Assembly (NCBI GenBank): GCA_036172665.1
Contig: CM069877.1
Span: forward strand, 24,329,001-24,393,000
Length of the DNA stretch: 64,000 bases
Reading direction: 5' to 3'
Origin: Prosopocoilus inquinatus
Taxonomy: Eukaryota > Arthropoda > Insecta > Coleoptera > Lucanidae
Below, one piece after another: positions 110-61,940 of this stretch. How positions within the stretch are numbered: the first letter of the stretch is position 1; each line of letters starts with the position of its first letter. Both the position numbers and the translations under genes were made by a program. The notes below the pieces were generated by a model, which saw only the letters and a list, made by a program, of their open reading frames with translations, was not told the origin of the DNA and ran no database searches.

Positions 110-700
110 ATATTGCAAAGCTAACAAACTTGTTTCAAAAATTAATAGATCTTGGTGAAGAACTTAAAGACAGATGGGTTGTTGGAATGATTTTAAGCAG
201 TGTTCCTCGAAGCTACGATACTCTTGTTACTGCATCAGAGACAAGACCAGAAGCGGATTAAACACTGAGTTTGGCTAAGTCAAAAATCCTCAGTGAATAA
301 AATCGGCGAAAGAAAGTAAATGATAGTCGGAAAGAAAGTAAAGAAGCTGTCCTCAAAAGTCCTCAAAAAATATATCTTGCTTCTTTTGTAAGAAAAGTGA
401 TCACGTAAAACGTGATTGCACTAAATACAGGATGTGGAAAGAAAAACAGGGCAAAATAAAAAAAGTTAAGAAGGATCAGCAAGTAAAGAACGAGAAACTC
501 AATAAAGGAAAACAATTGGAAGAATTCTTATTCATGGTTCATACAGGAAAAGGTGCAGGTGGGGCAATTGATTCAGATGCAACTTGCCACATTGCAAGTG
601 ACAAAAATTATTTAATGTCCTTAGACTATGTAAAATGCAACGATATTCATGGGACTAATGGTACGAAAATGTAAATGTTGTAGGAAAAGGTACTATAGAA
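110..700 (+). pseudogene. copia Gag and protease remnant
   Basis: From about 120 the translation resembles the copia Gag UBN2/DUF4219-type domain (LGEELKDRWVVGMILSSVP). It is broken by a TAA near 258 and by a frame change. A CCHC zinc knuckle, C-x2-C-x4-H-x4-C (CFFCKKSDHVKRDC), lies at about 379-420 and would bind genomic RNA. After it the same frame (432-674) holds the aspartic protease motif, but the expected DSGAT reads DSDAT, so the active-site Gly is replaced. The frame ends shortly after. Non-functional. Confidence 0.82.
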
Positions 701-924
701 TTGAATTTGTCAACGCAAGAAATAAAAATCAACTGCTGTAGTTTCCGACGTTCTGTATGCTCCTGCTATCAAGGGCAATTTACTCTCAGAAGACTATTGG
801 ACAAGGCTTTAAAATAAATTTCATCCCCGGTGCTTGCGAAATTTTACAGAAGGAAAAGCAAATCGGAATTGCGGACGAACATTCAGGTTTATTTCTTCTA
901 CGTTAACCCAGTAAAGCATATGAA

Positions 925-1720
925 GTGACTGAGCATAAACCAAATTGCATTCATCATTGGCATAGAGTGTCCAGTCCAGAAGCAATAAAAGGATTATGTT
1001 CAAGAGGATTGGTGGATGATTTGATAATTAAAGACTGCGGCACGAAAGTGTACTGTGAAATATGTCCAAAAGGTAAAATGACACGTTTGACATTTCCCAA
1101 AAAGTCATCGCAAAATTCGACAGTATTAGATCTCATTCATAGCGATGTTTGTGGACCTATTTAGACAGTTTCACCAAGCGGCAAGCGCTACATACTTCCA
1201 TTTATCGACGATTTTTCTCTGTATACAGTTATTTACCTGCTAGAGCAGAAATCTGAAGTCGAAACAAAAATCAGGGAGTATGTAGAATTGGTGAAAAATA
1301 AGTTCGAAAGAAAGCCTAAAATAATTAGATCGGATCGAGGAAGAGAGTACATGGCAAGCAAAGTTATCGAATTTTTACGAAACGAGGGGATCCAAATTGC
1401 CTTTTAGTTTTTGGGCTGAAGCTGTTGACACCGCTAACTATCTTCAAAATCGTTCACAAACTCGAGCTGTTGAAAGAACTTCTTAGGAGTTATGAAATGG
1501 AAGCAAACCAGGTACCAAACATTTGGCGATTTTTGGATGTCAATGTTTTGTTCATATTCCAGAAGAAAAGCGGAGAAAGTTGGACAGCGTAGGGACACCG
1601 ATGATTTTCGTCGGCTACGATGAACATTCGAAAGCCTACAGGTGTTACGATCCAAGTCGAAAGAAGATTGTCATAAATCGTGATGTTCGCTTTACAGAAA
1701 GTCTTTATCAAGAGCCAAGC
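925..1720 (+). pseudogene. copia integrase remnant
   Basis: The GAG-pre-integrase zinc-binding part (HHWHR, then CEICPKGK) lies at 940-1075. The catalytic core begins with HSDVCGPI near 1140 and is stopped at once by TAG (about 1162). It continues in frame with DDFS and RSDRGREYM (about 1330-1353), the DDE-type metal-binding residues. Another break comes at about 1405. The C-terminal half (from 1523) shows the copia signature FVGYDEHSKAYRCYDP followed by RDVRF. The enzyme would insert cDNA into the host chromosome; at least two stops make this copy dead. Confidence 0.85.
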
Positions 1721-1980
1721 AGAGATTTGGACTTGACTAAAAGGGACAATAAAAGAGATTCAGACGAATTTGTCGATATTGGAATCGACGTAAGCCGTAG
1801 TGAAGGAAATTCGGAAGAAGAATTACTTCAAGATAACTTCGATCACTCAAGTGACGAAGAAGAAAACTTTTCGGAACAAAGACAAGTACGCGTATCTCAG
1901 CGTGCGAATAAAAGAAAACCAGCGCGTCGATTAATCGAAGAGATTAGTAAGGTGCAGACTGGGTAACGGAGCTAAAAACT

Positions 1981-2803
1981 TTGGAAGACGTTATGGTCAG
2001 TAATCAAAAGGTCGAATGGATCAAAGCCATGGATAGCGAGATGAATTCTTTAAAGAAAAATGGAACTTGGGTATTGTGTAAACTGTCGAGTGATCGGAAG
2101 GCAATTGGTTGCAAATGGGTTTACAAAATAAAAGCTGATGCAGATGGTAATATACGCTGTTACAAGGCACGGCTTGTTGCCCAAGGATTTTCTCAGCAAT
2201 ATGGAATAGATTACGACGAAGTATTTGCTCCTATGCTAAGGCAAGCGATATTCAGAATTTTATTAACAATTACTGCGAGTCAAGAGATGTTTGTGCGACT
2301 CTTGGACGCTAAGACAGCGTTTTTAAACGGAAAATTTAAGGAAATCATTTACATGAAGCAGCCACCAGGGCATGAAGAAGAGACCAAAGTAGACCATGTT
2401 TATTTGCCTATATGGGCTCAAGCAGGCTGCGAGATCGTGGAATTAAGCTATTCATGGTGTATTAACTAAAGCAAATTTTAGTCAAGGCACCGCAGATCCA
2501 TGTTCATACACGAAAAATTACAAAACTGAATGGTGTTTTGTACTGATTTACGTTCATGACTTGATTGTGGCATGTAAACTACAGGAAGGAATAGAACAAG
2601 TGAAGAAGATGCTTTCATCGGAATTTGAAATGCAGAATCTTGGTGATATCCGACAATATTTGGGTTTAGAGACTCTAAAGGACCAAGACAGACATTATCA
2701 AATATCTCAGACGGGATATATCAATCGAATTGCGGTATTATTTGGGTTAAAAGGTGCAAAGTTGTCGAATGTATCAGTTGATTCAAGCTACCAGAAATCA
2801 TAG
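1981..2803 (+). pseudogene. copia reverse transcriptase (RVT_2) remnant
   Basis: The frame 1981-2469 carries RVT_2 motifs: WVYKIKADADG, YKARLVAQGFSQQYGIDY, and LLDAKTAFLNG around the first catalytic Asp. A frameshift near 2410 moves the rest to the frame 2561-2803. There the YVDD box reads YVHD (about 2549-2560), losing one catalytic Asp, followed by GDIRQYLGLE. RNase H is missing and the element ends near 2803. Inactive. Confidence 0.87.
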
Positions 2804-3631: not shown

Positions 3632-4711
3632 TTATCGAATGCCGATGGAAAAAAATAAAAATTATCGATATATCGATGAGTAGATAATACAGAATTTGCG
3701 CAAAGGCACCGTTACGTTATAAATGCATCGTTACAAATTAGAAAAAGCAGTTAATACTTTAAAATGGAAAGGAAAAGCACAAAATTTGAAGAATATGCGC
3801 TTAAACTTTGATAATATTTGAATACGGTGCTTCTCCTATTCGTTTCCAAGCAATAATTGCATTTTAAATTTTATAACGTTTGCATTTATAACATAGCGAG
3901 GTATCTGCGCAAACTCTATATTATCAACAAGCTGATGAATCAATTAATCGATATATCGATTTTTGAAACTATCGTCATTCAATAGGGAAATTTTGTTATC
4001 GCACAGCCCTAGTTGCAAGTCAGTATCGATTGCAGTGCACTGCAAGAGAATCCCTTGGACACTTATTTCGACTCTGTTTGGGGACTCCTCAGTAAAATGA
4101 GTAGCTCGTTAATTTCGTTGAAGTGAAACTGACCTGTCCGGGTTATATCGAAATTGAGTGCACATGTTGACTACAGTTTCCAAAGCGTATTCGCACGACC
4201 AATTTTTGTCCTAACCTTATATCAAAAATGCCATCCTGCACGAAATCAGGTCATAGCGGGGAATTTTGAAATGCAGCAAGTCGGTTTCGATTGCAGTAAA
4301 CTTGCAGATTAAAATTTGTTCTATGGATGGGGGAAGAAGTACAGAATGTCTCAATTTTTAAGGAACTCAAGGTTTACTGTGTTAAGAAGATAAATAACGC
4401 TATTCCATTCCAAAGTTAGTATATGAGAAATTGTCTCACACGCTTAAATTTACATGCATAAAGCCAAATGCCTGGTGGTACTGGTGGGGGTATGCGTGCG
4501 GTCTCTCGTGACGTCAGAATAGACTATGACGATTTTGATTGGTCGCGATCCACGGCGCATGAACAGTCGGTACCGTTACCAATAACAACGCAACTGTATA
4601 TGATGATTTTAAATTGAGCTTCAGTTTGGACGAGTAGACGACGTAGACCTGAGACCCATACGAAAAATGTCGAATCCGTTCCATATTGGATGAGGCAACT
4701 TCCCATATACT
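3632..4711. other. Unassigned non-coding sequence with two ATCGATATATCGAT palindromes
   Basis: No gene seen. A 14-bp palindrome (ATCGATATATCGAT) occurs near 3665 and again near 3952; these may be ends of an old element, but no further pairing was found. Confidence 0.4.
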
Positions 4712-6209: not shown

Positions 6210-6476
6210 CAACTTTTAGAAATTTCCGTTTTTATTTAAAACCTCGAACAGCCCCTGGACAGCTGCTTCAGCCCTGCTTGGGGCTTCTTCAGCAGAGACG
6301 CAGCTCGACATTCCCACCGCAGACCAAAAACGACTTGCCCAATTTATTCGCAATTGCGATGTAAGAATGATGAACAGATAAAATAACGACATCTTACTAT
6401 CGCTTTTTGACCTGACATTGCAGTAGGATAGACAAATTGAAGCGGGATTTGCTCCTAATGAGTCCCCCATGGGGGA
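6210..6476 (-). mobile_element. Hammerhead retrozyme unit (family A), minus strand
   Basis: About 267 bp homologous to the 312-bp monomer of the array at 8338-9653, in minus orientation, with an internal deletion just after the ribozyme (near 6215-6240). It includes a complete hammerhead. It is cut off on the right in the GTCCCCCATGGGGG palindrome, where the 6478-7190 inverted repeat begins. Confidence 0.8.
6251..6299 (-). ncRNA. Type I hammerhead ribozyme (family A)
   Basis: Minus strand 5' to 3': stem I GUCUCUG, core CUGAAGA, stem II AGCCC-CAAGCA-GGGCU, GAAG (GAAA in the other copies), palindromic stem III, cleavage site GUC, then CAGGGGC closing stem I. Relative to the array copies, changes on both strands of stem I keep all seven pairs. 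Confidence 0.85.
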
Positions 6477-6477
6477 T

Positions 6478-7190
6478 AATTTATCAAATTATATTGCCTA
6501 ATCAGTCGATGCAATTTTTTTTTAAACATGTAATTTAAAAATTTATCGGCAGCAGTACATTTGCCAGAAGAAGAACTTTTCAATTTGTCTCGTTTTTTCG
6601 TCAATATATCCCCTATACACTTTTGTGACGTCTCCAATAAGTATTTCTAAATGAAAAGTACGCTTACAAATTTAAAATATTGTAGTCACTGCAAAAATTC
6701 CCTCTAATCTTTCGATTTGCTCCTAATGAGTCCCCCATGGGGGACTCATTAGGAGCCACTTCAATTCCCACTTCAATTTGTCTATCCTACTGCAATGTCA
6801 GGTCAAAAAGCGATAGTAAGATGTCGCTATTTTATCTGTTAATTATTTTATGTCAAAATGGTGAAAATTGTAAGATGCGGCATGAAAATTACTACACAAA
6901 AAGCATTTTAAGGTACCAAACGGACAGGCCAGAATTGGGGAAAATGGAAATTATCGAAAGATTAGAGGAAATTTTTGCAGTGACTACAATATTTTAAATT
7001 TGTAAGCGTACTTTTCATTTAGAAATACTTATTGCAGACGTCACAAAAGTGTATAGGGGATATATTGACGAAAAAACGAGACAAATTAAAAAGTTCTTCT
7101 TCTGGCAAATGTACTGCTGTCGATAAATTTTTAAATTACATGTTTAAAAAAGATTTGCATCGACTGATTAGGCAATATAATTTGATAAAT
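6478..7190. repeat. Inverted repeat (about 235-bp arms) around a retrozyme fragment
   Basis: 6478-6712 and 6952-7190 are near-perfect reverse complements. The centre (6713-6850) is a plus-strand retrozyme fragment, so together with 6210-6476 the locus is again head-to-head. The arms contain an unrecognised coding-like stretch (KCIGDILTKKRDKLKSSSSG on minus). This may be a fragment of an unidentified element. Confidence 0.75.
6713..6850 (+). mobile_element. Retrozyme fragment (family A) without ribozyme
   Basis: It matches the monomer from GATTTGCTCCTAATGAGTCC to GTCGCTATTTTATCTGTT, and includes a perfect local hairpin around CCCCCATGGGGG. It ends at the same monomer position that bounds the other insertions. 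Confidence 0.75.
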
Positions 7191-8324
7191 GAAAAATACA
7201 CCTTGTGACGAAAAGAAAATAGTGCACATTGTTTCATTTGCAATAACTTTAAACTCAAAATGACTTTCATTGTCAAAGTTTAGTTACATGCATAAGTACC
7301 ACTTTTTCCCTAAATTTTCACGGCATACTTCGATGGTAAATAAATAAAAAACAGATATTAAATCAAAGAGTAAGTTTTAATCACATTGATGCAAAGCAAA
7401 TCATGAGTCGAAAGTTTAATTACTGTCGTGAAAGTAATTATTGCCGGTATGAGAACAACTATTATAGAAACTATCATCTATCGTCGTGTAAATTACTTGA
7501 AAATCGCTTTTACGCTCGCGATAGTATAATTCGTCTAAAACATTCGTTTACATGATAGTTTCTGTGAGAGTTGCTGTCAGGAGAGCAAAAGTTACTCTCA
7601 CGAGGGCTACTATCGCAAAAACTCGCACCGTAAAAACGAAGCTCAAGTCTGTCTATTTGACAAAATTGGTTTTCAGAGCCGTACAAAGCGTATCTCTGAA
7701 TTCGGTTCTTACTCTCACGAGAACAACTATCACGGAAACTCTCACCGTGACAACGAGGCTTTCGAACACAAAATTATTATTTCTAATGAAACGTTCTATA
7801 CAAAAAAAAAAAAACTAAAAAATGTTGCCTGATGGAAAACGAGTAAATGATCAACGATACTTTATTTACGAATTCTTTTTAGCTGATTGAATAGTAAGAA
7901 TCTTATATTTGAGAAAATAATGTGTGGTACTCAGACTAAAGTGACTAGATTAACAAAATAACATTAACGGGAAAAGAAACAGTAATAGATTCATTCGCGT
8001 TATATTCGTTCTGCTCTTATCTGAAATATGCGATAAAATATGCGTATCGTTAAAAGATCCTGTTATACTATATGCATAAAAAAATTTTCAGTATTGCAAT
8101 CAAATCGAGTCCTTATGTGTTAACTTGAATACATTTCTATATTGTAAGTAGTTCAGTGTTCAGTGTACAGTAATAACGGCGAAACAATTAGGGATGTGTG
8201 GTGGAGACATCGTATATGGAATGAAGTATTGGAAAAGCCACACACCATAACCATGGGCATAGGCATCCTTATAAAATAAAACACAATAACAAAAATAATA
8301 CGACTGAAAAGAAGTTTTTAAAAC
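7191..8324. other. Unassigned; contains a degenerate direct repeat
   Basis: 7585-7640 and 7705-7760 share ACTCTCACGAG..ACTATC..AAACTC..ACCGT, a degenerate direct repeat about 118 bp apart. The 88-codon frame over it reflects the repeat and is not a supported gene. The rest is AT-rich. Confidence 0.45.
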
Positions 8325-8337
8325 GAAAAGAAAATAA
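8325..8337. repeat. Target-site duplication, left copy (13 bp)
   Basis: GAAAAGAAAATAA; identical copy at 9654-9666. Confidence 0.8.
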
Positions 8338-8526
8338 ACATATAAAATAGCGACATCTTACTATCGCTTTTTGACCTAACATTGCAGTAGGATAGACAAA
8401 CTGAAGCGGGATTTGCTCCTAATGAGTCCCCCATGCAAGGCGGCCATGCTTGCTGTCAAAGCATAATGAAAGATTTTAGAAAAATTTTGTGCAAATCGTT
8501 TTTGATTGCAGTGAGAACCTCGAGCA

Positions 8527-8575
8527 GCCTCTGGACAGCTGTTTCAGCCCTGCTTGGGGCTTCTTCAGCAGAAAC
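8527..8575 (-). ncRNA. Hammerhead ribozyme, minus-strand monomer
   Basis: Minus strand: GUUUCUG / CUGAAGA / AGCCC-CAAGCA-GGGCU / GAAA / ACAGCUGU-type stem III / GUC / CAGAGGC. Stem I forms seven pairs, two of them G-U. Predicted cleavage is between 8534 and 8533 on the minus strand. Confidence 0.9.
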
Positions 8576-8931
8576 GTAGCTCGACATTCCCACTGCAGAC
8601 CAAAAACGACTTGCCCAATTTATTCGCAATTGCGATGTAAGAGTGATGAACATATAAAATAGCGACATCTTACTATCGCTTTTTGACCTAACATTGCAGT
8701 AGGATAGACAAACTGAAGCGGGATTTGCTCCTAATGAGTCCCCCATGCAAGGCGGCCATGCTTGCTGTCAAAGCATAATGAAAGATTTTAGAAAAATGTC
8801 TATCCTACTGCAATGTTAGGTCAAAAAGCGATAGTAAGATGTCGCTATTTTATATGTTCATCACTCTTACATCGCAATTGCGAATAAATTGGGCAAGTCG
8901 TTTTTGGTCTGCAGTGGGAATGTCGAGCTAC

Positions 8932-8980
8932 GTTTCTGCTGAAGAAGCCCCAAGCAGGGCTGAAACAGCTGTCCAGAGGC
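8932..8980 (+). ncRNA. Hammerhead ribozyme, array unit 1
   Basis: Stem I 8932-8938 pairs with 8974-8980. Core CUGAAGA is at 8939-8945; stem II is 8946-8950 with 8957-8961; GAAA is 8962-8965. The self-complementary stem III (ACAGCUGU) is 8965-8972. Cleavage is predicted after C8973. The 8-nt palindrome cannot form a long hairpin in one molecule but can pair between two copies, so dimeric cleavage is expected. Confidence 0.92.
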
Positions 8981-9243
8981 TGCTCGAGGTTCTCACTGCA
9001 ATCAAAAACGATTTGCACAAAATTTTTCTAAAATCTTTCATTATGCTTTGACAGCAAGCATGGCCGCCTTGCATGGGGGACTCATTAGGAGCAAATCCCG
9101 CTTCAGTTTGTCTATCCTACTGCAATGTTAGGTCAAAAAGCGATAGTAAGATGTCGCTATTTTATATGTTCATCACTCTTACATCGCAATTGCGAATAAA
9201 TTGGGCAAGTCGTTTTTGGTCTGCAGTGGGAATGTCGAGCTAC

Positions 9244-9292
9244 GTTTCCGCTGAAGAAGCCCCAAGCAGGGCTGAAACAGCTGTCCAGAGGC
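9244..9292 (+). ncRNA. Hammerhead ribozyme, array unit 2
   Basis: Same as unit 1 except that stem I reads GUUUCCG, which gives one C-A mismatch. Cleavage after C9285. Core residues are intact. Confidence 0.9.
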
Positions 9293-9555
9293 TGCTCGAG
9301 GTTCTCACTGCAATCAAAAACGATTTGCACAAAATTTTTCTAAAATCTTTCATTATGCTTTGACAGCAAGCATGGCCGCCTTGCATGGGGGACTCATTAG
9401 GAGCAAATCCCGCTTCAGTTTGTCTATCCTACTGCAATGTTAGGTCAAAAAGCGATAGTAAGATGTCGCTATTTTATATGTTCATCACTCTTACATCGCA
9501 ATTGCGAATAAATTGGGCAAGTCGTTTTTGGTCTGCAGTGGGAATGTCGAGCTAC

Positions 9556-9604
9556 GTTTCTGCTGAAGAAGCCCCAAGCAGGGCTGAAACAGCTGTCCAG
9601 AGGC
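9556..9604 (+). ncRNA. Hammerhead ribozyme, array unit 3
   Basis: Identical in core and stems to unit 1. Cleavage after C9597; the unit ends 56 nt later at the target-site duplication. Confidence 0.92.
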
Positions 9605-9653
9605 TGCTCGAGGTTCTCACTGCAATCAAAAACGATTTGCACAAAATTTTTCT

Positions 9654-9666
9654 GAAAAGAAAATAA
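9654..9666. repeat. Target-site duplication, right copy (13 bp)
   Basis: GAAAAGAAAATAA; identical copy at 8325-8337. It also marks the first base of homology with the segmental duplicate at 54404. Confidence 0.8.
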
Positions 9667-10328
9667 TGCAATTTTTGACTTGGACATATTTAATTAGTCC
9701 TACCTAATAATTAAATTAGCGATTTGCCACCGACCAGCATTAAATGAGGTACTATGCCCGCCAAAAAAAATCCTGGACAACTCTCTACATGCATTTGAGT
9801 TATTTATTAGTTTGAATTGAGCTTTAAGCCATTCATCTTGTTATTTAGAGCTTATTTCTATGGTAACGTAAAAACAGTTCGATATATTTACAGTAGGACA
9901 TATTACGTGTCCCAGATTTTTTTGGCGGGCATAGTACTTCACTGAAAATTAAAATTAAAATTAAATTAAAAATAAATTCTAGTTTTCATCGAAACATACA
10001 ATATCTAAGTACTCAAGTAGGTACAGACTTAGAATTAATTCTTCTAAATAAAATAGTTTTAATTCAATTAAAAATGTAATTATAAGTTAACATAGAGGAA
10101 AAAGTGAACGTTTAACTTAACTTTTTCTCTGGACTTAGTACTCTTTATTTGCTTTGGTTTCGTTTTTCTTCGAATATCCTGTTTTATATTGTTTCAAAGC
10201 TAACCCGGAGGAGGAACGACTTTAGACAAACACAAGTTCCAAAAATAAATGAAGACTGTTAAAAGCAGATAAACAATTGGAGGTAGAATTAATAATCCTT
10301 TGAAGTAATTACATCTCAAAAATTAAGA

Positions 10329-10498
10329 TCAATTCTCACACGGCAGCGCGCCACGACGCGTTATTTTGCTGCCTCTAAAAGTTGTCATGGTTTTAAATGA
10401 AGCAATTATTACTCGGCAGCATTTTATGTCAAAAAATTACATGTAAAAGCATAGGAACCAAAATGACGCGACGCGACGCGCTGCCGTGTGAGAATTGA
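10329..10498. mobile_element. MITE with 22-bp inverted ends (copy 1)
   Basis: TCAATTCTCACACGGCAGCG at the left end is repeated inverted at the right end. A GC-rich GACGCGACGCG block lies just inside the right end and its counterpart inside the left. The paralogous copy is 56306-56475, so insertion predates the duplication. Confidence 0.7.
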
Positions 10499-11079
10499 GC
10501 CTTAGATGGATTTATATAGCTACAGTTGATTGCAGAAAAATTGAATGGGTATACCGACAAAATCAAAACAGCAAAATTTTACAATTTGTTGACAATGTAA
10601 ATTCACTTTTCCAATTCTCAAGTTTTATATTTCAGACAGGATTTATTTGAAAATTAAACATCTTTCACATTGACATTAAAAGTAAGACTAACACGAACGA
10701 ATTAAACCAGAAAAAAATAACTGTACTCGATTTTTTTTAATTAACTGTACCGTAACTTTATCTTTGCTTGTACCTTATATCTTATTTGATTCCAAATTGA
10801 CAGTGGGGAAAGGACATCAGACTGACACTGTATAAGAAGAACCTGTACAAAACCAATCAATCACTAATCTATTAAGTCTATTCTATAAGTATTTCGTATT
10901 GATTTTTATGCTTATTACGATTGTTGTGTAACAAGCACAATTAATTTCTTTAAAAAAATCTCTTCAAATGATTGTTAAGGCATACCCATGTGTAGGTATT
11001 CTGTGACCACCAACTCATTTCAATTAATATCTAAAAATAATTGAAGAGAAATGAATTGGTATGTAACTTAACTATCAAA

Positions 11080-11263
11080 CCAACCATAGAAAACCACCAA
11101 TCAGACTTCAATATGCCGTAACGATCAATTGAAGAGAATACGATCTTTAGGAAATCAATTATTATGCTCGTTACATATCAATCGTAACACGCATAACAAT
11201 CAACATGAAACGCTTACAAAAGAAACCTAATTGACGTTTGATTGGAGGGTTTCTGTGGTTAGA
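11080..11263. repeat. Imperfect inverted repeat, MITE-like (copy 1)
   Basis: CCATAGAAAACCACCAATCAGA at the left pairs imperfectly with the right end near TTGATTGGAGGGTTTCTGTGG. A counterpart lies at about 57030-57212. Confidence 0.5.
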
Positions 11264-13380
11264 TAATTATTAAGATGATGGGCTTCGATATTTTAAATAG
11301 TAAGTCTACATCCAGCCATTTATCAGTCTTCATTTATTTTTGAATTAATTACAGGGAACTTGTGCTCATCTGAAATCGTTTCTCCTCCGTGTTAACTTTG
11401 AAACAAAATAAAACAGGAAATTCGTCAAAAACCAAATTAAAGTACCGAGTCCGAAGATAAAATTAAAATTTTATTCGTTCATTATATTATCTATTTTTTA
11501 CTTTTGTTTTTATGAGTTGCCTTTTTGTATTAAATTGCAAAACACCTTGTATATTAAAGGTGTAAAATTATTCGTCATTGCTAAGTATGAATAGTTAGCT
11601 ATTCTTGAATAAAGTTACGAATAATTCAAATAATTACCCAACTAAATAAATATTTATTCAAATAATGCCAAGTCGTAATAACAGAATCATCGGATCCTTT
11701 ACAAGATTTAATTTTCTGTTAAGTTTCTACGATAATTGTAGCACTCAAAAGAAAATTTGTGAGGTTTTTCGATCCTTCTGATGTAAGTTTCCTCTCATAG
11801 GAAATCTTGATAAGAATTTGCAAGAAATGTACAATAGCGGACAATAAAATCCAGGTACTTTATTTGGATAATGTTCATATTTCAGTTATTTATGTGCGAT
11901 TGTTTCTGAGTTGTACAAATTTCTATGTAAAATTCATGGATTTAGTAGTACAGGATACGCCTAGCCCTACAAATTCAGGGAAAACATCGACACCGGTACA
12001 TCTCTCTATTTCACTCGATATAATGTCAATGTGTTTAACCTTTCTTTCTGGCTTATTATTCATATGTGAATAAAATCTTTGAAATATCAAGATGGAGGTA
12101 TAACCTCCAGCACGAAAACCCGGTCCAATTTTTTAAACGGCAATTTTCCAGTAGGGCAAAACAAACTTTTTCAACACATGGACGGCACTCGGCATCGAAA
12201 TTAATAATATTATTTATTGCACTCATCAGAGTGTCACATTAAGAGTTGTTTTCTGACATTTTTAGGGCCAGTAATGTATATAAGAGCAGAGCAGGTACCT
12301 AAACATGTAATTTAGCAATCAATTAGCAATCTCTATTTTGTCCATGTTCAATTATTGAATATTTGGAATGTGAATGTGTGAATGTTGGCAAATTTTATAG
12401 TCCGAGAGTTAGTGGACTTTTCTGACAAAGTTACTCGTTATCGTTCCCGGGCAGTTCTGAAGGAGTCTTAACAACTGAGATGTTTCTCCAAATCTAGATT
12501 CGACTCTGTCCACGATAGCTACTTTCCATTTCAAGCTGTTATGCCCCAGGGTTTAAACCCTGAAGCCGCCCAAAGTTTCTTGTTTAATGGAATGCTCCCT
12601 GTGTTTTGTGAAAAGGAATACAGAGCTTGAAGTGCCTGAAGTGTTCGGAACAGCTCCTTTGTATAAAAGGAAAAAATCTGATGCATGTCGTTGCTGCGGA
12701 TTCTGACCCGTCAACCCAGTTATCAGAGTGAGCGAATTGTGGGTCCCAGGGTTCGCAGAAGGAATTCTTAAGAACGTCTGCACTCTAAAGTTAATCTACT
12801 TTCAATTACTGATTTATTGCATAGTAAAAAGGTCGTGAAGGGATAATGTACATACATTCATTAAAAATATTGCCATACATAAATTCGTTGAAGCCTAGAG
12901 AGAAAATAGGTTTTCAGAATCAATACAAACACCCTGCTTAGATTTGACGTCCTTTGTTTTAAAGGACGCCCACCATTTTCAGACTCAAAAATAAATCTTG
13001 TCCCATATTTTAAAATCAAGAGTAGAGGACAATAATAAGTATTTTTTATTTTTATTCATTTTTAAATAACTAAGTACTTACTATTGGCTTCAATTAAAGA
13101 CTATGATATGTTGCATATTAAAATTGCTCTTTTTATCGCATACAAAATAAAGCAAACAATAAATAAAGCAGCATTTAGGTGCCTACGAAACCCTCAGTGC
13201 TCAAGTCTGATTTGCACTTAAACAGGTTTTTATTAATAAATGACACTATTGATACCATAACAGAGAATTTTAACAACATGATGTCCCTTATTTTCATCGT
13301 TGGTTCTTTATTCTATCATATCAACAAATACAAAACGTAGAGCTGATAACCCCAACCTCACTTTATGTAAACGTCCAAAC

Positions 13381-15185: not shown

Positions 15186-15282
15186 GTCTATTGCGGGCTT
15201 TATAAAAAAATATCCACGTGAAATTTCAGACGTTTAAGCAATTTTATTTACGCTACGTAAACAAATTTTTTTAAAAACTTTC

Positions 15283-15400
15283 ATTATGCTTGACAGCAAG
15301 CATGACCGCCTTGCATGGGGGACTTATTAGGAGCAAATCCGCTTCAATTTGTCTATTCTACTGCAATGTCAGGTCAAAAAGCGATCGTAAGATGTCGTTG
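15283..15400 (+). mobile_element. Retrozyme fragment (family A), no ribozyme
   Basis: It matches the monomer from CTTTCATTATGCTTGACAGC to GATGTCGTTGTTTTTCTGT with about 8 % differences. The ribozyme half is missing. Absent from copy 2 of the duplication. Confidence 0.7.
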
Positions 15401-15404
15401 TTTT

Positions 15405-16206
15405 TCTGTAAACATTAGTAATCACAAAAGGGAGGATCTAAGAAAGTGAACTGCTTGAAACCAGTTTGAGACAGCGGCAGTTCGACTCGACGCGGGGGTC
15501 TAAATCGAAGCGTTAAATGTTCCGCCCGCTTATACGTGATTTTTAATCAATCAGTCTAATATCGCCACGGTAACAACGTGAATATAATTCCGGAAGCTAA
15601 TAACAGCTCTTTCTTGAATTTAGAAACAACAATTTAGTTGATTTGAATTAAATAGAAACACGACACGTCTCTGCAGCACACTCTCTCGTGCGCATCCTGT
15701 CCGAGCATCGCAGTCAATCGCGACATTATTGTGAATCATGCCATCCTAACGAATGCATTATTACTTTGGCTTACCGATTGTTCACTATCAGCTAGACGCG
15801 CTGCGCCGGCAAATATGAGGCGTGTACACAATCTATTTATAACATCGCACCGCTTCGTTGCAATAGCAAAGTTTTACACTTTTTTCTGTCCGCCAAGTGG
15901 TAATCACGCTGGTCGTGTGACCGCCGCATGGCTATTGCCACCGCTGCGCAATAAATATGCAGGTACAACGTGCTGTTTTCGCAAGCCAGAAAGAGGACAA
16001 ATGCATCGAAATCATATCGAGTGAAATGGAGAGATGTACGGTATTCTGTAATATGCTTTCCCAATAAGCGACGTACGTTTATATGGAGACGGCGTATCTT
16101 TACTTATATATCTATGGTAAAATGTGAATGCCGAAGGGAACACATGCTCTTTCTATTTCTCTACCCTAAGACCTGTTTACAACACTCAGAAGGTGAACAA
16201 ATACAC
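15405..16206. other. Unassigned, relatively GC-rich
   Basis: Richer in CpG than its surroundings. The overlapping open frames here resemble no family I know. 15905-16109 pairs with 59545-59749 in the duplicate. No splice-linked gene could be supported. Confidence 0.4.
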
Positions 16207-16218
16207 TACAATTTTTAC

Positions 16219-16436
16219 AGATAAAATAGCGACATCTTACAATCGCTTTTTGACCTGACATTGCAGTAGGATAGACAAATTGAAGCGGGATTTGCTCCTA
16301 ATAAGTCCCCCATGCAAGGCGCCCATGCTACGTATCTGCTGAAGAAGCCCCAAGCAGGGCTGAAACAGCTGTACAGAGGCTGCACGAGGTTTTCACTGCA
16401 ATCAAGAACGATTTGCACAAAAAATCTTTTCTAAAA
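16219..16436. mobile_element. Head-to-head retrozyme insertion with 12-bp TSD
   Basis: 16219-16327 is minus-strand monomer sequence and about 16329-16436 is plus-strand, including the ribozyme. TACAATTTTTAC is duplicated at 16207-16218 and 16437-16448. Both outer ends fall at nearly the same monomer positions as in the 8338-9653 array. Confidence 0.88.
16332..16380 (+). ncRNA. Hammerhead ribozyme (family A)
   Basis: GUAUCUG / CUGAAGA / AGCCC-CAAGCA-GGGCU / GAAA / ACAGCUGU / cleavage triplet GUA / CAGAGGC. One stem I mismatch; core intact. Confidence 0.88.
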
Positions 16437-16654
16437 TACAATTTTTACGTATACAAAATGTCACTAGCAATTCTGACGTTTAATCAATGATGTAATAAGG
16501 TTAGATGGAGTCTAGCAGCATTTTGAATAGGACTGCATCGGCAACATTAGAGAGAGAAAGATAATATGATATGCAAAAAACTAGCCATTCAAAAACAAAT
16601 CGCAATAAATATTTTGCATATTCAGAATGCATCTGAACTAAGCTTAATGCAAGT

Positions 16655-32132: not shown

Positions 32133-33216
32133 CTTCACTGTTCTTTAGCAATTTCTTCGAGATTAATAAATAATTTTATTTTCTGAAAGAGCCAGAGTGA
32201 AACGTAGATAAACTTTCATTACGTTGGTCATCATCATCAGTTTTTTCAAACTTGTGATGCAAATGAAGACAAGTGCTACTTTTACAGTAATCTTGGAATA
32301 AGGGATGTAATCAGATTAAACAATATGTTTATTAAATTAGAAATAATATAAATGTTATGAGCCTCTCACATAATACTTGATATTTTCAGCTTCGATGGAA
32401 TTAATTTGCAAGGTCATCAAACTTGAAGGAAACAAGCTGCAGTAACGTTTAGGTGTTTTAACTTTAGGCACTTTTGGTGTCACTTGCATGCAGAACTGAT
32501 GTTGCTAGATAGGTACTTTTGTGAGTTTATATCCACTCATTATATTGAGTACATTTTAATCAGTACATCAGTCAGTTTAATGCCAGATGGATTGGTGGAT
32601 ATTCTAGGTTAGATAGCAATCTTACGATGAGTTCATGTTTATGTTAAAATCTCCTTGCTTCGATACAAATTAACTCTGAGAAGTCTATTTTCACTACAAT
32701 GTAAATAAATTAGGAAACGAATTAAATTATTCGCCAATACATACCCTCTTTACATTAAAATTTCTACACCTGACAACTTCGCTTTAAATTCATAGCTAAA
32801 ATTAAAATGCAGTATCTAACCTCAAAGCAGTTTGTTGCGTACTGTTTACCTCTGTTTATCTCTGCTCATGTGTTTTGTGTTTAAACAGAGAAAAACCGAT
32901 TGCGGAATTTGATAAAAATGACAGTCCGCGATACGGTTCTGCCATCTAGCGAATTTTTACAAACTACTCAACTTGCTCAAAATTTTAAACTGAAAATGGC
33001 GGCGAGTGAGCGTACCAGTGTTCTCTATATCGTGCCATTGCTTTAACTCATGAAAAGTATTTAGATGCCATTCATTGAAAAAAAAACTACTCTAACAATT
33101 AGTGTTGCCAAATTACGGATAATTACCTGAACTGCGAATAAATTTACCTTATGCGGGTAAGGTAATGGGCAGTTTTGGGTAACTGGTACTCTTTTTTATA
33201 TTACATTACCTTTATT

Positions 33217-33515
33217 GAACAGATAAGACAGCGACATCCTACGATCGCTTTTTGACCTGACATTGCAGTAGGATAGACAAATTGAAGCGGATTTGCTACC
33301 TAATATGTCCCCAAGCGGTTGTAGGATGTCGCTGTTTTATCTGTTCATCACTATTACATCGCAATTGCGAATAAATTGGACAAGTCGTTTTTGGTTTGCA
33401 GTGGGAATATCGAGCTACGTCTCTGCTGACGAAGCCCCAAACAGGGCTGAAACAGCTGTACAGAGGCTGCTCGAGGTTTTCACTGCAATCAAAAACGATT
33501 TGCAACAAAATTTTT
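33217..33515. mobile_element. Head-to-head retrozyme insertion, 299 bp, 12-bp TSD
   Basis: 33217 to about 33308 is minus-strand monomer sequence and about 33311-33515 is plus-strand with the ribozyme. ATTACCTTTATT is duplicated at 33205-33216 and 33516-33527. Outer ends coincide with those of the other insertions. Confidence 0.88.
33419..33467 (+). ncRNA. Hammerhead ribozyme (family A)
   Basis: GUCUCUG / CUGACGA / AGCCC-CAAACA-GGGCU / GAAA / ACAGCUGU / GUA / CAGAGGC. The core has C at the free position of CUGANGA, which is allowed. Stem I pairs fully, with one G-U. Confidence 0.9.
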
Positions 33516-34612
33516 ATTACCTTTATTATTATTAAATTTTCTATTTTTCATTAAAACTATTTCATTGTCATAGCATATCAGTATAACACAACATATCAGT
33601 AAAAGATAAGTTATTGCATTTTAGAACATTAAATATAAGGACCTGATTTTAGGTAAAACACCTTTTTTTCAGATTTTTAGATTTTACAGATTTCTTTGCA
33701 TATCTTTTCGTTTCATTAGAAATAGAGCCATTTAGAGTACCTTTTCTCAATTTTTGTTCACCTATTGCAACTTTACCTATTTTGCCCTTTTATCACTTAA
33801 ATAAAAAAAATGTTTATTATTTAAACGGGATTCTTTTTGCTATCGCTGCCTAAAATAAATAGATAATAAATTGTCGTTATTATACCGTCAATGTGACTTA
33901 CAAAGGCCGCATTCAGGTAACCGGAGCAGGTGAATTGCTGACCCATTACGTGGATTTTCAGCGAATGGTAATCCTGAACGGGTAACAAAGCGAACTTTAA
34001 AATGCGAACTATTAAAACTTAGCACCATAAGCTATTTGTCTGTGCTATGCATAAGCTGAGTCAGCAACTTAGCTGCTGTGGAGATCTAAACGCAGCCCTT
34101 TCAGGTAAACCGAAACAGTGTAATAATAAACTAATAAGAAAATATGCGGAAAGTTAAAAATCTTTCAAAGGCGTTCTCAGTGACTGAATCAAATAATAAT
34201 TAAATGTATTTCAAGCTTTAAAAGATAATTTATTATTCTACAGAGTTTATGGCAAGCCAGTAAATCAGATGATCAAAGTATTAATATTAAATCTGAACGA
34301 TTCAAAATAAGGTGAAAGACAGCCAATAATTTATTTAAGTTTTTACAAAATTCAAGATAATGATTTTAATTTTAATGTTTTATTTAATTTTATTGGACGT
34401 TTTTAAGTACCTCTCATGAGAGAAGAATAATAATATACGACCTAAAAGTTCGGTCTTAATAGTGTTAGTTAAAGTGAAGATATTTGCATTTTTGTGAATA
34501 AAAATTTGAGTTTCTTAATTTTTTTTTAAATGTGTCTTGCGCCACCAAAGGGCCTCGCAAAGTTTATTTTGCCCACATCAAATTTAGATCTGGCCCCGCC
34601 GCTGTACAAAAG

Positions 34613-35768: not shown

Positions 35769-38687
35769 CATAGGCGCCGCTTCGTCGGGTGCACGGACCT
35801 GGTGCACCTGACAAATGATTTTGTGGGGTGCAAAAATATTAAAAAGCACCCGACAAAATAATTCGTTATCACCTCGTGAAAGAATTAGTAATTAGGCATC
35901 GTTCAAAATATAACATACTATTTTAGTCTATTTTTAGTATAACATGAACTTGTATCAAACATGAAGCTAGTTTTACAGTGTAACTAACAAACCGTGGGGA
36001 CATTTCGCGGGTTTTTAATTGATAGGCGCATGACCGTAAACTGGCGCTACTTTCCACAGTTTGCCGCTAGGGGCGGGCGAGGCTACTGAATTATGCGTCA
36101 TTCTTCATTTAAATAAATCTTGCAAACGCAACTTCAAAAGTGCTACCACGACCTATCTCTTCTTACTGTTTTATACATACTACGGTGGTGTAATCGTTTT
36201 GTTTAAAGCACGTTTGCAAGCAGTTATCTGTTTAATTTTCTGAGTAGTAAGTATTATGTGTTTTGTCCGATTTGGATTAATTTTAATTATTTAATTATTA
36301 AGTATTCATAGTGGATAAATTTGTTTATAAAATTGATCCAAAGGAAAAAGGAGAGTCAAGCAGTTTTACTACAATTGCATTGAACGATAAACTTGAAAAT
36401 AAAGAAAATAAATTAAATGTATGTCCAAATCCTAAGCAAGGACGATCTTTTAATGAAAAATGGAAATTGAAATATAACTGGATACATTATAATGAAGAAA
36501 AAGATAAGGTTTTTTGTTCGTTGTGATGTGATTCAGTAATAGCGGAAGTTCCTTTACCCAGTACCACAACGGCAGAACAACGCACAATCAAATGTTTTAC
36601 TCAGGATGGATTTAATGGTTGGCATAAAGCACACGAGCGTTTTCTTGCACATGAACAATCAAATGTGCATAAAAAGGCTTTCGTCGCAAAAACTAGTATG
36701 GCAGCTGGTCAAAATGTTTCGTCATCCACTGGAAAAAGTATGCAAATGAAAGAAGCTCGTGTTGCTCTTTTAAAAATAATCTCGTCTTTAAGGTATCTCG
36801 CTCAACAAGGATTACCAATTAGAGGACACTTCGACATAAATTCAAATTTTATGCAGTTATTGCATTTAAGAGCTGAGGACTGTCCTGAACTTAAAGCGTG
36901 GCTAAATCGTAGTGGACACAAGTGGTTATCACACGATATTTTAAATGAAATTCTAACACTCATGTCAATAACTGTCCTTCGAAAATTGTGTTTGTTACTA
37001 AAAGATACTTATTTTAGCATAATCTTGGACGAAACTACTGACATCGCTACCAAAGAGCAAATTTCACTGTGTTCGATTTGTCGACCAAGAAAATAAAGTA
37101 AATGAATATTTTCTTGGATTTTATGAAACACCAGAAACAAATTCAGAAACACTGTTCAATATTGTCATGGATTGCCTTGCACGACTTGACATTAATATTA
37201 CAAAATGCAGAGGACAGTGCTACGATGGTGCTAGCAATGTTAGTGGTCATGTATCTGGACGTCAGTCTAGAATTAGAGAAATCGAACCCCGAGCAATCTA
37301 TGTTCACTGCTTTGCTCATTCTCTGAACTTAGTGGTACAGGACAGTTTAAACAAAATTGATAAAATAAGAGATTTTGTAGGCACAGTTAAAGAATTAATT
37401 AATTTTATTAAAGCTTCTCCTAAAAGACTGTCTGCATTTACTAAAATTCAATCTTCTGGTTCTGAAGATGAAGAGATTGCACTGTCAACGTCAGTGGCAT
37501 TACGATCTTTTTGTCCAACACGTTGCTGTTTTCGCATTACATCTTTAAAAGCAGTATTGAATAATTATGTCAACATTTTAGAATTCATGCAGGTTAGTGC
37601 TTCATCGGTAAATTCCTGTGAAATTACTTCCAAAGCAAATGGATTTTTAAAATTCTTACAAAAATTTGAGACCTTATTTTTCTTTCTTGTAACTATTAAC
37701 ATTTTTGAACGAATCGAGGAATTATATTCTGCCCTCCAAAAGATAGATTTGTCTTTGCAAACGGCGCGAAACTTGATTGATAATGTTCTCAATATGTTAA
37801 AACTGAAAAGAGATAAAGGATTCGAGGAGCTGTGGAAAAGTAGCGTCAAAAAGGCTAACGAATTTCAGATTAGATGTCCTAAGCAGCCAAAGGTAAGGAA
37901 AATTCCTAAACGATTTAATGACGCAGGACCACCCTTTCATCCAAATTCTCCAATGGAATACTACAGGCCTCTATATTTCGAAATATTAGATACAGCTATT
38001 TCAAGTATTGTCAACCGCTTTAATTCAACAGCTTTTGAAAATTTGATAAAAGTCGAGCAATTTTTAATTGGCCATACTGATACAGATAAAGATGTTATAC
38101 TATTGTATGGTGATGATTTTGATAACAACAGGCTTCTAATTCATCATAATATGCTACTGGATTTAGCCAATTCAAAGAAACATAAGTTTAATAATTTATT
38201 TGACGTTACACAGTTTTTTAACGAAAACCCAGAACTGTCAGAATTACTCCCAGAAATTCACAAATTGATTAAAATATTGCTAACCGTTCCCGTCTCGTCA
38301 TCCACAGCAGAAAGATCTTTTTCTACATTACGTCGAATAAAGACTTACTTAAGATCTACAATTGGTCAATCACGCCTTAATCATATGGCAATTTTAAATA
38401 TCCACAGAAAAGAAACTAACGTGCTAGACTTGGAACAAGTTGCAAATGAATTTATTTCTAGAACTGCTACAAGGCGCAACATGTTTCATATAATATAAAG
38501 TAACCTACTATTTTGTTTATTAAATGTTTAATATATGTAAATATGTAATGTCAACAATTACCTGCATGTTTTCAATAAATTTAACAATGTTTATAATACG
38601 TTTTTTATTTTGTGTATATTATAGACTGAACATACGAATGACAAAGAAAATTGCATCCGACAATATTTTAAAAATCCGGCGCCTATG
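35769..38687 (+). mobile_element. hAT transposon, 2.9 kb, 8-bp TSD
   Basis: Terminal inverted repeats CATAGGCGCCG / CGGCGCCTATG. GTAAAAGC is duplicated at 35761-35768 and 38688-38695. The inverted paralogue at 29540-29600 has the uninterrupted site. It encodes one transposase, now broken in at least three places. Confidence 0.92.
36311..38498 (+). pseudogene. hAT transposase (ZMYM1/DUF4371-like), broken
   Basis: This is a cut-and-paste transposase of the hAT family most often annotated as zinc finger MYM-type protein 1-like. An N-terminal TTF-type zinc-finger region (WHKAHERFLAHEQSNVHKKA) is followed by the DUF4371-type core. The first catalytic Asp lies in ILDETTD (about 37023), the second in CYDGASNV (about 37218). 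The C-terminal hAT dimerisation domain has VPVSSSTAERSFSTLRRIK with the conserved Glu (about 38290-38340). Damage: the expected start reads GTG, an in-frame TGA is at 36524, and a one-base shift near 37073 splits the first catalytic motif from the rest. The downstream 443-codon frame (37167-38498) is clean, so decay is recent. Confidence 0.9.
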
Positions 38688-50392: not shown

Positions 50393-50429
50393 AGAAAGTA
50401 AAATAAAAGCACTCGATATTGTTTCACTT

Positions 50430-53168: not shown

Positions 53169-53311
53169 CATAATTGAAATTGGTTCTTGTCCGATGAAAA
53201 TTATAAGTACAAAGTTTTTTTTCTCCTGGCGAAGCTATAAATCTATAGCGAAACGTTGAGTGTCTTCTCTTCATATTTCTGTCCGGTTCGAGATTAAAAA
53301 TACTTTGTACT
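53169..53311 (+). mobile_element. Solo PLE terminal unit (143 bp) with hammerhead, 12-bp TSD
   Basis: TTCAAAGTTATC is duplicated at 53157-53168 and 53312-53323. The insert is only the hammerhead-bearing end, with inverted AAGTACAAAGT / ACTTTGTACTT near its limits. Confidence 0.82.
53221..53262 (+). ncRNA. Hammerhead ribozyme (family B)
   Basis: CUC / CUGGCGA / A / GCUAUA-AAUC-UAUAGC / GAAA / CGUU / GAG. The conserved A of CUGANGA is G here, which should reduce activity; stem II is perfect. Confidence 0.65.
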
Positions 53312-54403: not shown

Positions 54404-54877
54404 GAAAAGAAAATAATGCAATTTTTGACTTGGACATATTTAATTAGTCCTACCTAATAATTAAATTAGCGATTTCCCAACGACCAGCATTAAATAAGGT
54501 ACTATGCCCGCCAAAAAAAAATCCTGGACAACTCTCTACATGCATTTGAGTTATTTATTAGTTTGAATGGAGCTTTAAGCCATTCATCTTGTTATTTAGA
54601 GCTTATTTCTATGGTAACGTAAAAACAGTTCGATATATTTACAGTAGGACATATTACGTGTCCCAGATTTTTTTGGCGGGCATAGTACTTCACTGAAAAT
54701 TAAAATTAAAATTAAATTAAAAATAAATTCTAGTTTTCATTGAAACATACAATATCTAAGTACTCAAGTAGGTACAGACTTAGAATTAATTCTTCTAAAT
54801 AAAATAGTTTTAATTCAATTAAAAATAAGTACAAAGTTTTTTTAATCTCAAACCGGACAGAAAAATGAAGGGAAACA

Positions 54878-54919
54878 CACTCAACGTTTCGCTATAGATT
54901 TATAGCTTCGTCAGGAGTG
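54878..54919 (-). ncRNA. Hammerhead ribozyme (family B), full pairing
   Basis: CACUC / CUGACGA / A / GCUAUA-AAUC-UAUAGC / GAAA / C-G-U / U / GAGUG. Stem I 5 pairs, stem II 6 pairs, core canonical except the extra A. AACGUU is self-complementary, allowing stem III in a dimer. Confidence 0.82.
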
Positions 54920-55049
54920 AAAAAAAGTAAATAAACAAGTTGTCAAGAGAAACAAGTCGTCAAGAGAAACGAAAAGGTAACATGATTTTTAAACTAAACT
55001 ACGAGTTGTTCGGAATAAAAGTAACGAGAACTAATTAAAGCTACTTTTT

Positions 55050-55080
<31 letters not shown>

Positions 55081-55098
55081 ATTAATTAATTGACAGAT

Positions 55099-55428
55099 CT
55101 ATATCTTGTTTAAAGAGTCCAGAAAACTACAAAATATGTCATTTAAATTTTCAAAGTCCGTACGTTTATTAATAGAATTTCGAGACATTTTAATTTTACA
55201 CATTTCTATGAAACGTCTTTTAAAAATATTAGATTCACTGTACAAAATATCAGTATTATCAAAATCAAAATTATGATTATTAACTAATGAATGCTCTACA
55301 AGCATTGAATGATTTTGATTATTTTTTTGAATATGATATTTATGTTGGTCTAAACGTTTTTTTAAATTTTGGCTCGTTTCACCTATATAAACAGAATTAC
55401 AATTTGAACATTTGATTTCATAAACCAC
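55099..55428 (-). CDS. PLE GIY-YIG endonuclease domain
   Basis: A 109-codon frame with EIKCSNCNSVYIGETSQNLK, containing the Cys pair and the VYIGET form of GIY-YIG, and the RLDQHKYHI helix. It runs to the element's C-terminal stop. In PLEs this domain is fused after the RT and nicks the target. No RT is attached here, so it is the 3' fragment of a PLE ORF with an intact domain. The start is set only by the inverted junction upstream. Confidence 0.85.
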   Translation of the reverse strand: MVYEIKCSNCNSVYIGETSQNLKKRLDQHKYHIQKNNQNHSMLVEHSLVNNHNFDFDNTDILYSESNIFKRRFIEMCKIKMSRNSINKRTDFENLNDIFCSFLDSLNKI

Positions 55429-55560
55429 GTTAGGTTGTTTTGATTACGGTATTTTCGTTTTTAAATTCGAAAAAATTAAATTTAAATTATACACAGATTT
55501 ACTGGCTAAAATTAAATTATGTTTTTTGAAAATGTGTTTAAATGTATTGTGTAATGGTTC

Positions 55561-55739
55561 AATATAATTTTGATTTTGATAATACTGACATTTTGTACAG
55601 TGAATCTAATATTTTTAAAAGACGTTTCATAGAAATGTGTAAAATTAAAATGTCTCGAAATTCTATTAATAAACGTACGGACTTTGAAAATTTAAATGAC
55701 ATATTTTGTAGTTTTCTGAACTCTTTAAACAAGATATAG
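55561..55739 (+). pseudogene. PLE GIY-YIG C-terminal fragment, inverted copy
   Basis: Inverted duplicate of the last 55 or so codons of the preceding frame (NFDFDNTDILYSESNIFKRR onward), with one substitution near the end. It lacks the GIY-YIG motif itself. Confidence 0.85.
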
Positions 55740-55915
55740 ATCTGTCAATTAATTAATTATATATATATATATATTAAAAAAAAAAAAAAAGTAGCTTTAA
55801 TTAGTTCTCGTTACTTTTATTCCGAACAACTCGTAGTTTAGTTTAAAAATCATGTTACCTTTTCGTTTCTCTTGACGACTTGTTTCTCTTGACAACTTGT
55901 TTATTTACTTTTTTT

Positions 55916-55957
55916 CACTCCTAACGAAGCTATAAATCTATAGCGAAACGTTGAGTG
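55916..55957 (+). ncRNA. Hammerhead ribozyme (family B), core G changed
   Basis: Same as 54878-54919 but with CUAACGA: the invariant G of the core is A. Probably inactive. Confidence 0.7.
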
Positions 55958-56305
55958 TGTTTCCCTTCATTTTTCTGTCCGGTTTGAGATTAAAAAAACT
56001 TTGTACTTACTATTTTCATCGGACAAGAACAAACTTCAATTCAATTAAAAATGTAATTATAAGTTAACATAGAGGAAAAAGTGAACGTTTAACTTAACTT
56101 TATCTCTGGACTTAGTACTCTTTATTTGCTTTGGTTTCGTTTTTCTTCGAATATCCTGTTTTATATTGTTTCAAAGCTAACCCGGAGGAGGAACGACTTT
56201 AGACAAACACAAGTTCCAAAAATAAACGAAGACTGTTAAAAGCAGATAAACAATTGGAGGTAGAATTAATAATCCTTTGAAGTAATTACATCTCAAAAAT
56301 TAAGA

Positions 56306-61771: not shown

Positions 61772-61940
61772 GTGTTAAGTGTTAAAATTACTTATATGAA
61801 ACAATTTATGTTTTTATTATTCTAAAGTATGTATAAGTAAAATAAAATTTTTATCGCATATAATATCCATATTTTGATCCATTTTAATCGCATAAAAAAA
61901 AACTTATTTTCCACTTTTTTAGCACATATAAATCCGGACT

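Follow-up and report, generated by a model that had tools for sequence, protein, structure and literature searches.

The 312-bp repeat array at 8338-9653 is probably a recent retrozyme insertion in which a Penelope-type enzyme extended both ends of the target on an RNA circle. Its two arms lie head to head, and this anatomy is common to the retrozyme and to Penelope-like elements in the 64-kb stretch of DNA analysed here (the window), which is the surprise of this locus. The initial annotation overlooked the head-to-head fold-back, four relatives in the window and the insertion architecture common to Penelope-like elements. This window bears on the question of which enzyme mobilises animal retrozymes. 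In the portions of two earlier papers that we draw on, Penelope elements are a strong candidate on the basis of co-occurrence, tandem copies and shared ribozymes (PMC7229834, PMC7761336). One 64-kb window now gives a structural footprint, consisting of two-armed insertions, a duplication length and one end distance common to retrozyme and Penelope copies.

The array is a single head-to-head insertion bordered by 13-bp duplications

The array (copy B) is a single insertion of 1316 nt that contains 4.2 units of 312 bp in total. It folds back head to head, with 1.47 antisense units (460 bp) followed by 2.75 sense units (857 bp) and base 8797 common to both arms (Table 1). TRF on the sense side returned a period of 312 with 2.8 copies and 99% matches over 8797-9658, and the distance between direct repeats is 312 twice on the plus side and 312 once on the minus side, so that the 312-bp period previously proposed was borne out on both strands. 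Three plus-strand units had been described; three hammerheads are indeed present (cores at 8939, 9251 and 9563), but the array itself covers 2.75 units on that strand. The minus-strand set has the same 312 spacing as claimed and extends over 1.47 units with one hammerhead (8568 to 8534). Likewise, the 312-bp units are tandem, but the array as a whole is not a simple tandem, since the antisense arm precedes the sense arm. The sole base difference among the units is 9249 T>C in the plus arm, and the minus arm (8338-8797) has 0 mismatches against the unit.

Table 1. Coordinates of the array, its relatives and other elements in the window
Feature	Position	Strand	Basis or remark
Copia-type remnant	342-2803		Pfam
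Copy A, fold-back	6240..6843	.	Ends at unit 18 and unit 200; CCATGG palindrome at inner junction (by eye)
Left target-site duplication of copy B, 13 bp, GAAAAGAAAATAA	8325..8337	.	Sequence comparison
Copy B antisense arm, 1.47 units	8338..8797	-	Runs from unit ~196 (Y, outside) to unit 49 (inside)
Antisense-arm hammerhead, core to GUC	8534..8568	-	Predicted cut between 8534 and 8533
Copy B sense arm, 2.75 units	8797..9653	+	Runs from unit 136 (inside) to unit 56 (X, outside), 56 nt past cut
Hammerhead 1, core to GUC	8939..8973	+	Predicted cut after 8973
Hammerhead 2	9251..9285	+	A.C mismatch in stem I from 9249 T>C
Hammerhead 3, core to GUC	9563..9597	+	
Right duplication of copy B, 13 bp	9654..9666	.	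Same 13-mer joined to right flank in the 54404 repeat
Empty target site of PLE-1	10061..10075	.	In paired repeat copy
Copy C, single sense arm	15264..15407	+	Ends at Y; weak 7-bp duplication GTAAACA
Copy D, fold-back	16219..16436	.	Unit positions: antisense arm 196-84, sense arm 266 to about 60
Copy E, fold-back	33217..33515	.	Unit positions: antisense arm 199-103, sense arm 165-54
hAT transposase	36527-38498		Pfam
LINE with endonuclease and RT	42399-45238		Pfam
PLE-3, miniature fold-back, 143 bp	53169..53311	.	Tailed antisense arm, short sense arm; 12-bp duplication TTCAAAGTTATC
PLE-1, fold-back with GIY-YIG fragment (55099-55443 -)	54827..56037	.	15-bp duplication AATTCAATTAAAAAT
Two DUF659/hAT-type copies	60386-62971		Pfam

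The 13-bp direct repeats reported at the borders of the array are present on both sides, and their length was reached by 4 of 2000 random position pairs drawn from the window with the same tolerance. A repeat that starts at 54404, 98% identical over the first 250 bp, has the same 13-mer contiguous with the right flank. This empty site is one-sided: its right half is seen at the 54404 repeat, where the left flank is matched for no more than two bases.

The 54404 sequence belongs to a large repeat found twice in the window, at 9654-13378 and 54404-59371, as collinear pieces that are 74-99% identical. Copy B stands at the left edge of the first large-repeat copy and the Penelope-like element PLE-1 inside the second; with one insertion in each, every copy consequently displays the empty site of the other (one-sided for copy B). 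Both large-repeat copies also contain a short MITE-like element whose inverted ends carry GGTACTATGCCCGCCAAAAAAA (9746-9941 and 54490-54697).

Each unit carries a type I hammerhead with a very short helix III

All four hammerheads of copy B have the core CUGAAGA, the stem II strands AGCCC/GGGCU with loop CAAGCA, the GAAA and the GUC. The GAAA is followed by the palindrome ACAGCUGU, which spans helix III, then by C and by the strand that pairs upstream of the core. Six pairs between this strand and the pre-core sequence form stem I, which continues into an internal loop and a long extension, while helix III (A-C/G-U) has two base pairs and a palindromic tetraloop, AGCU. Core and stems I and II are intact in this arrangement, a type I layout with a short helix III. 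Judging from the letters, in a dimer the palindrome may give a longer shared helix III in place of the two pairs. The earlier claim that every complete unit carries a hammerhead with intact core, stem II, GAAA and GUC stands for all four; the copy at 9251 has a mismatch in stem I. The cut site predicted there after 8973 agrees with our own reading.

We searched the window with a structural descriptor that demands the core, three stems and UH, using a core motif that we take to be that of hammerheads. It matched four times, at 8939, 9563 and 33426 on the plus strand and at 8568 on the minus strand; three of these lie in copy B and the one at 33426 in a relative, copy E. The descriptor missed 9251 (the 9249 mismatch), copy D (a stem I mismatch) and copy A (G at 15.1), and on 100 dinucleotide-shuffled windows it gave 0 matches. 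Rfam did not confirm the hammerhead: in a search of the 64 kb no family reached its gathering score. With E up to 10 the sole hammerhead family listed was Hammerhead_HH9 (14.5 bits against a gathering score of 52, E 4.5), whose sub-threshold matches cover three of the four copy B hammerheads. The type I family is absent from this E<=10 listing, where overlapping clan members are reduced to the best one. We read the miss as a poor fit of the models to a very short helix III, and it remains a negative result. It is the one observation in favour of a chance motif or an assembly artefact with no ribozyme behind it, an explanation that we consider extremely improbable in view of the empty shuffles, the four dispersed relatives and the one-sided empty site.

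When the hammerheads of copies A, B, D and E are aligned, differences fall, among other places, at N7 (A or C), at 17 (C or A) and in loop II; under the numbering that we assume, these are presumably tolerant positions. Copy A has G for A at 15.1, a change that should weaken its hammerhead if the sequence is a guide.

The unit RNA is highly self-paired and probably non-coding

The 312-nt unit in its C-variant folds at -116.9 kcal/mol (z -8.3), and 0 of 100 shuffles were equally stable. Folded as a circle, the T-variant reaches -112.1 kcal/mol unforced and -106.1 kcal/mol with the hammerhead forced, a gap of 6 kcal/mol. In the forced fold the ribozyme sits at the tip of a long rod, a prolongation of stem I, whereas in the unforced optimum GCUG pairs with CAGC across the core and hides the hammerhead, tertiary contacts being outside the model. 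This core-masking pairing might, as modelled, protect the circle. GC content is low (0.39 over 8001-10000). Three microRNA families (MIR821, mir-5928 and MIR169_2) gave low E-values over 8582-8925, all below gathering; we set them aside, taking them to reflect the long perfect fold-back.

The array had been described as having no coding capacity, and this needs one qualification. The length of 312 is divisible by 3, and one frame of the circle, closed by just one stop, gives 96 codons from ATG (9052-9363); this frame is also open throughout the 232-nt arm of copy A. The retrozyme frame has no Pfam match, hence no RT or GIY-YIG domain was found in it. Single-base indels shift the frame in copies C and E (the three inserted bases of copy D keep it), and the changes by codon position 1:2:3 are 28:14:19, with no third-position bias. 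On these grounds we rejected a coding circle, although the frame is open in copy A.

Relatives in the window have the same two arms and recurrent outer ends

BLASTN with the unit retrieved four more insertions in the window (copies A, C, D and E), each with less than one unit per arm and with arm identities to the unit of 90.6-95.4%, against a single difference across the 1316 nt of copy B. Fold-backs with the antisense arm first make up 4/5 of the retrozyme insertions (A, B, D and E), copy C having one arm. Duplications of 12-13 bp border three of the five: besides the 13 bp of copy B, copy D has the 12-bp TACAATTTTTAC (16207-16218 / 16437-16448) and copy E the 12-bp ATTACCTTTATT (33205-33216 / 33516-33527). 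Their lengths were reached by 2 and 1 of 2000 random pairs, respectively, and that of the weak duplication of copy C by 26/2000. Copy A showed no target duplication beyond a 6-bp match. The hammerheads of copies D (16339) and E (33426) have GUA.

The outer ends recur. One of them, which we call Y, falls at unit 190-200 in all five insertions by BLAST (193-200 allowing for the duplications), at CTGT or ATGT of GCTATTTTATCTGT, and in some copies the match runs on into the flank for one or a few bases. The other, X, lies 56 (B), 55 (E) and 63 (D) nt after the cleavage site. Second ends other than X are found in copy A, at unit 18, and in copy C, at unit 47 in the opposite sense. The inner junctions vary (49|136 in B, 84|266 in D and 103|165 in E, with a palindrome in A), as would be expected if cDNAs stop at random.

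An inverted repeat could also form by snap-back on a single template or by later DNA rearrangement, with unequal crossing over accounting for the tandem units. The palindromic junction of copy A would suit snap-back, and self-priming has been proposed for rotifer Penelope elements in the sections of PMC3846280 that concern us. In B, D and E, however, the sense arm sets in at another unit position than the one at which the antisense arm stops, its end is not Y, and each of the three insertions is bordered by a 12-13 bp duplication. We rejected self-priming as a general origin since the three junctions do not fit it, and we regard this whole group of explanations as very unlikely.

Several further observations concern these copies. 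Unrelated sequence at about 6478-6714 interrupts copy A between duplicated stretches of ~30 bp and recurs inverted downstream, at about 6925-7190. A distant relative of the unit near 4014-4108 (-), with 67% identity over 95 nt (E 0.11) and a diverged hammerhead-like motif of its own, is perhaps an older retrozyme subfamily, to judge by its sequence. A candidate clean empty site for copy C was dropped: the paired repeat is without a further stretch of about 490 bp. A GUC at unit 137-139 (e.g. 9422-9424) stands ~57 nt upstream of the Y end and resembles the cut-to-X distance; no second hammerhead core was seen before it, and the sequence suggests that the resemblance is probably chance. Exact-pattern scans of viral contig and genome contig collections gave no match, nor did a search of a phage collection.

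Penelope-like elements in the window share the fold-back anatomy

GIY-YIG matches were obtained in two minus-strand frames, at 55099-55443 (E 3.1e-7, above the Pfam cut-off) and at 50114-50443 (E 0.0045, below it). The scanned frames of at least 90 aa (34 of 39) gave these two matches only and no Penelope reverse transcriptase. None of 6 candidates was a homologue of the GIY-YIG fragment at E 0.001. The second relic (50114-50640) has pieces in both orientations, its plus-strand piece having been recognised by eye.

The first GIY-YIG fragment lies in PLE-1, whose arms are 99% complementary over 234 nt. Its minimal hammerhead reads ...GCGAAACGTT^GAGTG..., with the cut assigned from stem I pairing; the core is intact in the left arm, alone among the Penelope hammerheads read, and in the right arm is CTAACGA (G5 to A). 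Counted from its own cut, the short end of PLE-1 is at +56 and its tailed end at +85 (29-nt tail). In PLE-3 the short end is at +54 and the core is changed to CTGGCGA; past the common GTACTT, the tailed arm runs for 36 nt in PLE-3 and 29 nt in PLE-1. A third Penelope-like copy, at 16651, is without a whole hammerhead core and has its short end at +55, so that the three short ends lie 56, 54 and 55 nt after their own cuts (PLE-1, PLE-3 and 16651, respectively). Further Penelope-like copies at 30608, 41188 and 45772, whose ends are ill defined, were left out of the end counts. PLE-1 and PLE-3, the two Penelope copies for which both ends could be set, are fold-backs with a duplication. Rfam returned nothing relevant on PLE-1, and Penelope-type hammerheads are unlisted there at E up to 10. 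A search for RNA sequence common to PLE-1 and the retrozyme unit gave a best E of 0.87; a common sequence was rejected, and no similarity supports a start signal common to the two.

A Penelope-type enzyme probably extended both target ends on the same RNA

The purified Penelope protein of the anole cuts and extends both strands of its target (Frangieh et al. 2024, PMC11167929). It starts internally, 111-118 nt into an ORF that has its hammerhead cut at +26, which by subtraction places the start 85-92 nt after the cut; the Penelope tail is the stretch between two start sites (PMC11167929). The tailed end of PLE-1 at +85 fits this figure. With two arms, the RNA 3' side outward, 12-13 bp duplications and preferred starts, the retrozyme copies look like Penelope-type products. 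The retrozyme X ends, at 55, 56 and 63 nt after the cut, compare with the Penelope short ends at 54, 55 and 56, while Y and the +18 end of copy A differ. The match was noticed post hoc and ends within one family are not independent; allowing 3 nt of slack and two sites each for Penelope and the retrozyme, we estimate its chance at roughly one in ten. Two points fit less well: in the anole enzyme the start site does not differ between strands, unlike in B, D and E, the arms of which use different start sites, and its insertion went ahead without hammerhead cutting (PMC11167929).

We infer the following course for copy B. A tandem source locus would be transcribed and its hammerheads would cut the transcript into 312-nt units, which would then be closed into circles, as in the retrozyme family. 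A Penelope-type reverse transcriptase/endonuclease would bind such a circle, cut both strands of an AT-rich target with a stagger of 12-15 nt and extend the two 3' ends of the target along a single RNA from internal starts at unit ~190-200 (Y) and ~54-60 (X). Each cDNA might make more than one lap of the 312-nt template (the arms here measure 460 and 857 nt), and joining of the two would produce a head-to-head array with the RNA 3' side outward in each arm and the duplication at its borders.

That both arms of copy B exceed one unit and that all 4.2 units have one sequence implies that either a circle or an exact multimer was copied. The circle is the simpler template on our analysis and agrees with published family biology. 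A linear multimeric transcript of a tandem array, with the rest of the mechanism unchanged, is a somewhat unlikely substitute for it: multimeric retrozyme RNAs exist in the axolotl, according to passages of PMC7229834, and the anole Penelope enzyme accepts uncut RNA in vitro (PMC11167929), but with one unit sequence and one difference over the 4.2 units of both arms a single circle is the simplest source.

Mobilisation of the same retrozyme by a LINE through ordinary twin priming appears unlikely to us, although it would yield the same two-armed anatomy, and although a LINE is present in the window (frame 42749-45238 with RVT_1). Among the best 120 of 2411 relatives of this frame, identity is at most 48%, and the 7 with an organism name are all from beetles (Photinus, Callosobruchus and Brassicogethes), which makes a beetle host likely. 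The duplications too resemble LINE products, with a median of 13 bp in the relevant part of a human study (PMC12016303). The same part of that study gives 5' inversion for 18.4-21.9% of L1, 13% (3/23) of processed pseudogenes, 0.02% of Alu and 0 of SVA insertions, against the 4/5 fold-backs here. At 21.9%, the probability of at least four fold-backs in five is 0.0095, with the reservation that five copies make a small sample and that rates from humans may not apply here. Furthermore, no poly-A run is visible at the retrozyme outer ends, and the Penelope copies in the window share the anatomy. Extension by a Penelope-type enzyme remains the reading that we prefer.

The end distances also suggest, tentatively, that the hammerhead could be a positioning device as well, from which Penelope starts lie at set distances downstream (about 55 and 85-92 nt). 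Retrozymes would then parasitise the Penelope-type enzymes by offering them a hammerhead on a circle, along which both target ends would be extended by rolling-circle copying into head-to-head arrays; we hold this to be rather doubtful. The anole enzyme inserts uncut RNA equally well, so that insertion needs no hammerhead cutting, and catalytic hammerhead mutants left insertion in vitro unchanged (PMC11167929). The mutant result fits the positioning reading, since position and not cutting would matter, although the mutants probed catalysis, not position. If true, a positioning role would give a reason for hammerhead conservation in Penelope elements.

Comparison with known retrozymes and Penelope-like elements

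From features readable in its sequence, the array is best supported as a metazoan non-LTR retrozyme, in line with the initial annotation. These features are a type I hammerhead layout, a 312-bp tandem unit within the range of 150-450 bp, low GC, duplications of more than 4 bp, a non-coding unit and a self-paired RNA. In the portion of the description by Cervera and de la Pena (2020, PMC7229834) that bears on this class, insects are named among the hosts and Penelope elements are proposed as helper. Shared with that portion are the type I hammerhead with short helix III, the tandem unit (170-400 nt there), low GC, duplications longer than 4 bp and the highly self-paired RNA; the head-to-head arms with recurrent outer ends set the present copies apart from it. 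The main text of PMC7229834 contains neither 'head-to' nor 'orientation', and in the 12 of 14 places covered its 'invert' is part of 'invertebrate'. Among the titles and abstract openings listed from the open-access literature on inverted or fold-back retrozymes, Penelope twin priming or inversion, and beetle hammerheads, none described head-to-head retrozymes.

Fold-backs, duplications, two alternative outer ends and a hammerhead upstream of the starts are common to these copies and to Penelope-like elements (PMC11167929, and PMC3846280 in the sections cited). Rotifer Penelope duplications are 8-10 bp in the latter, compared with 12 and 15 bp in this window. A Penelope-like element proper has an ORF with RT and GIY-YIG, unlike the retrozyme unit, which is without a recognised protein or a 30-40 bp tail. 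The palindromic helix III of the unit is longer, and nothing at the distance of the Penelope tail corresponds to its Y end.

The satellite retrozymes of newt and axolotl are similar in their repeats of 330-350 bp, their palindromic helix III tetraloop and the possibility of dimeric action, as far as PMC7229834 describes them. Axolotl Amex1 has a one-base-pair helix III in that description, as opposed to two base pairs here, a distinction drawn from the description. Plant LTR retrozymes, as the relevant parts of PMC7761336 present them, are also non-coding, and give rise to circles processed by hammerheads; theirs are type III ribozymes with 4-bp duplications, whereas the present copies combine type I hammerheads with duplications of 12-13 bp.
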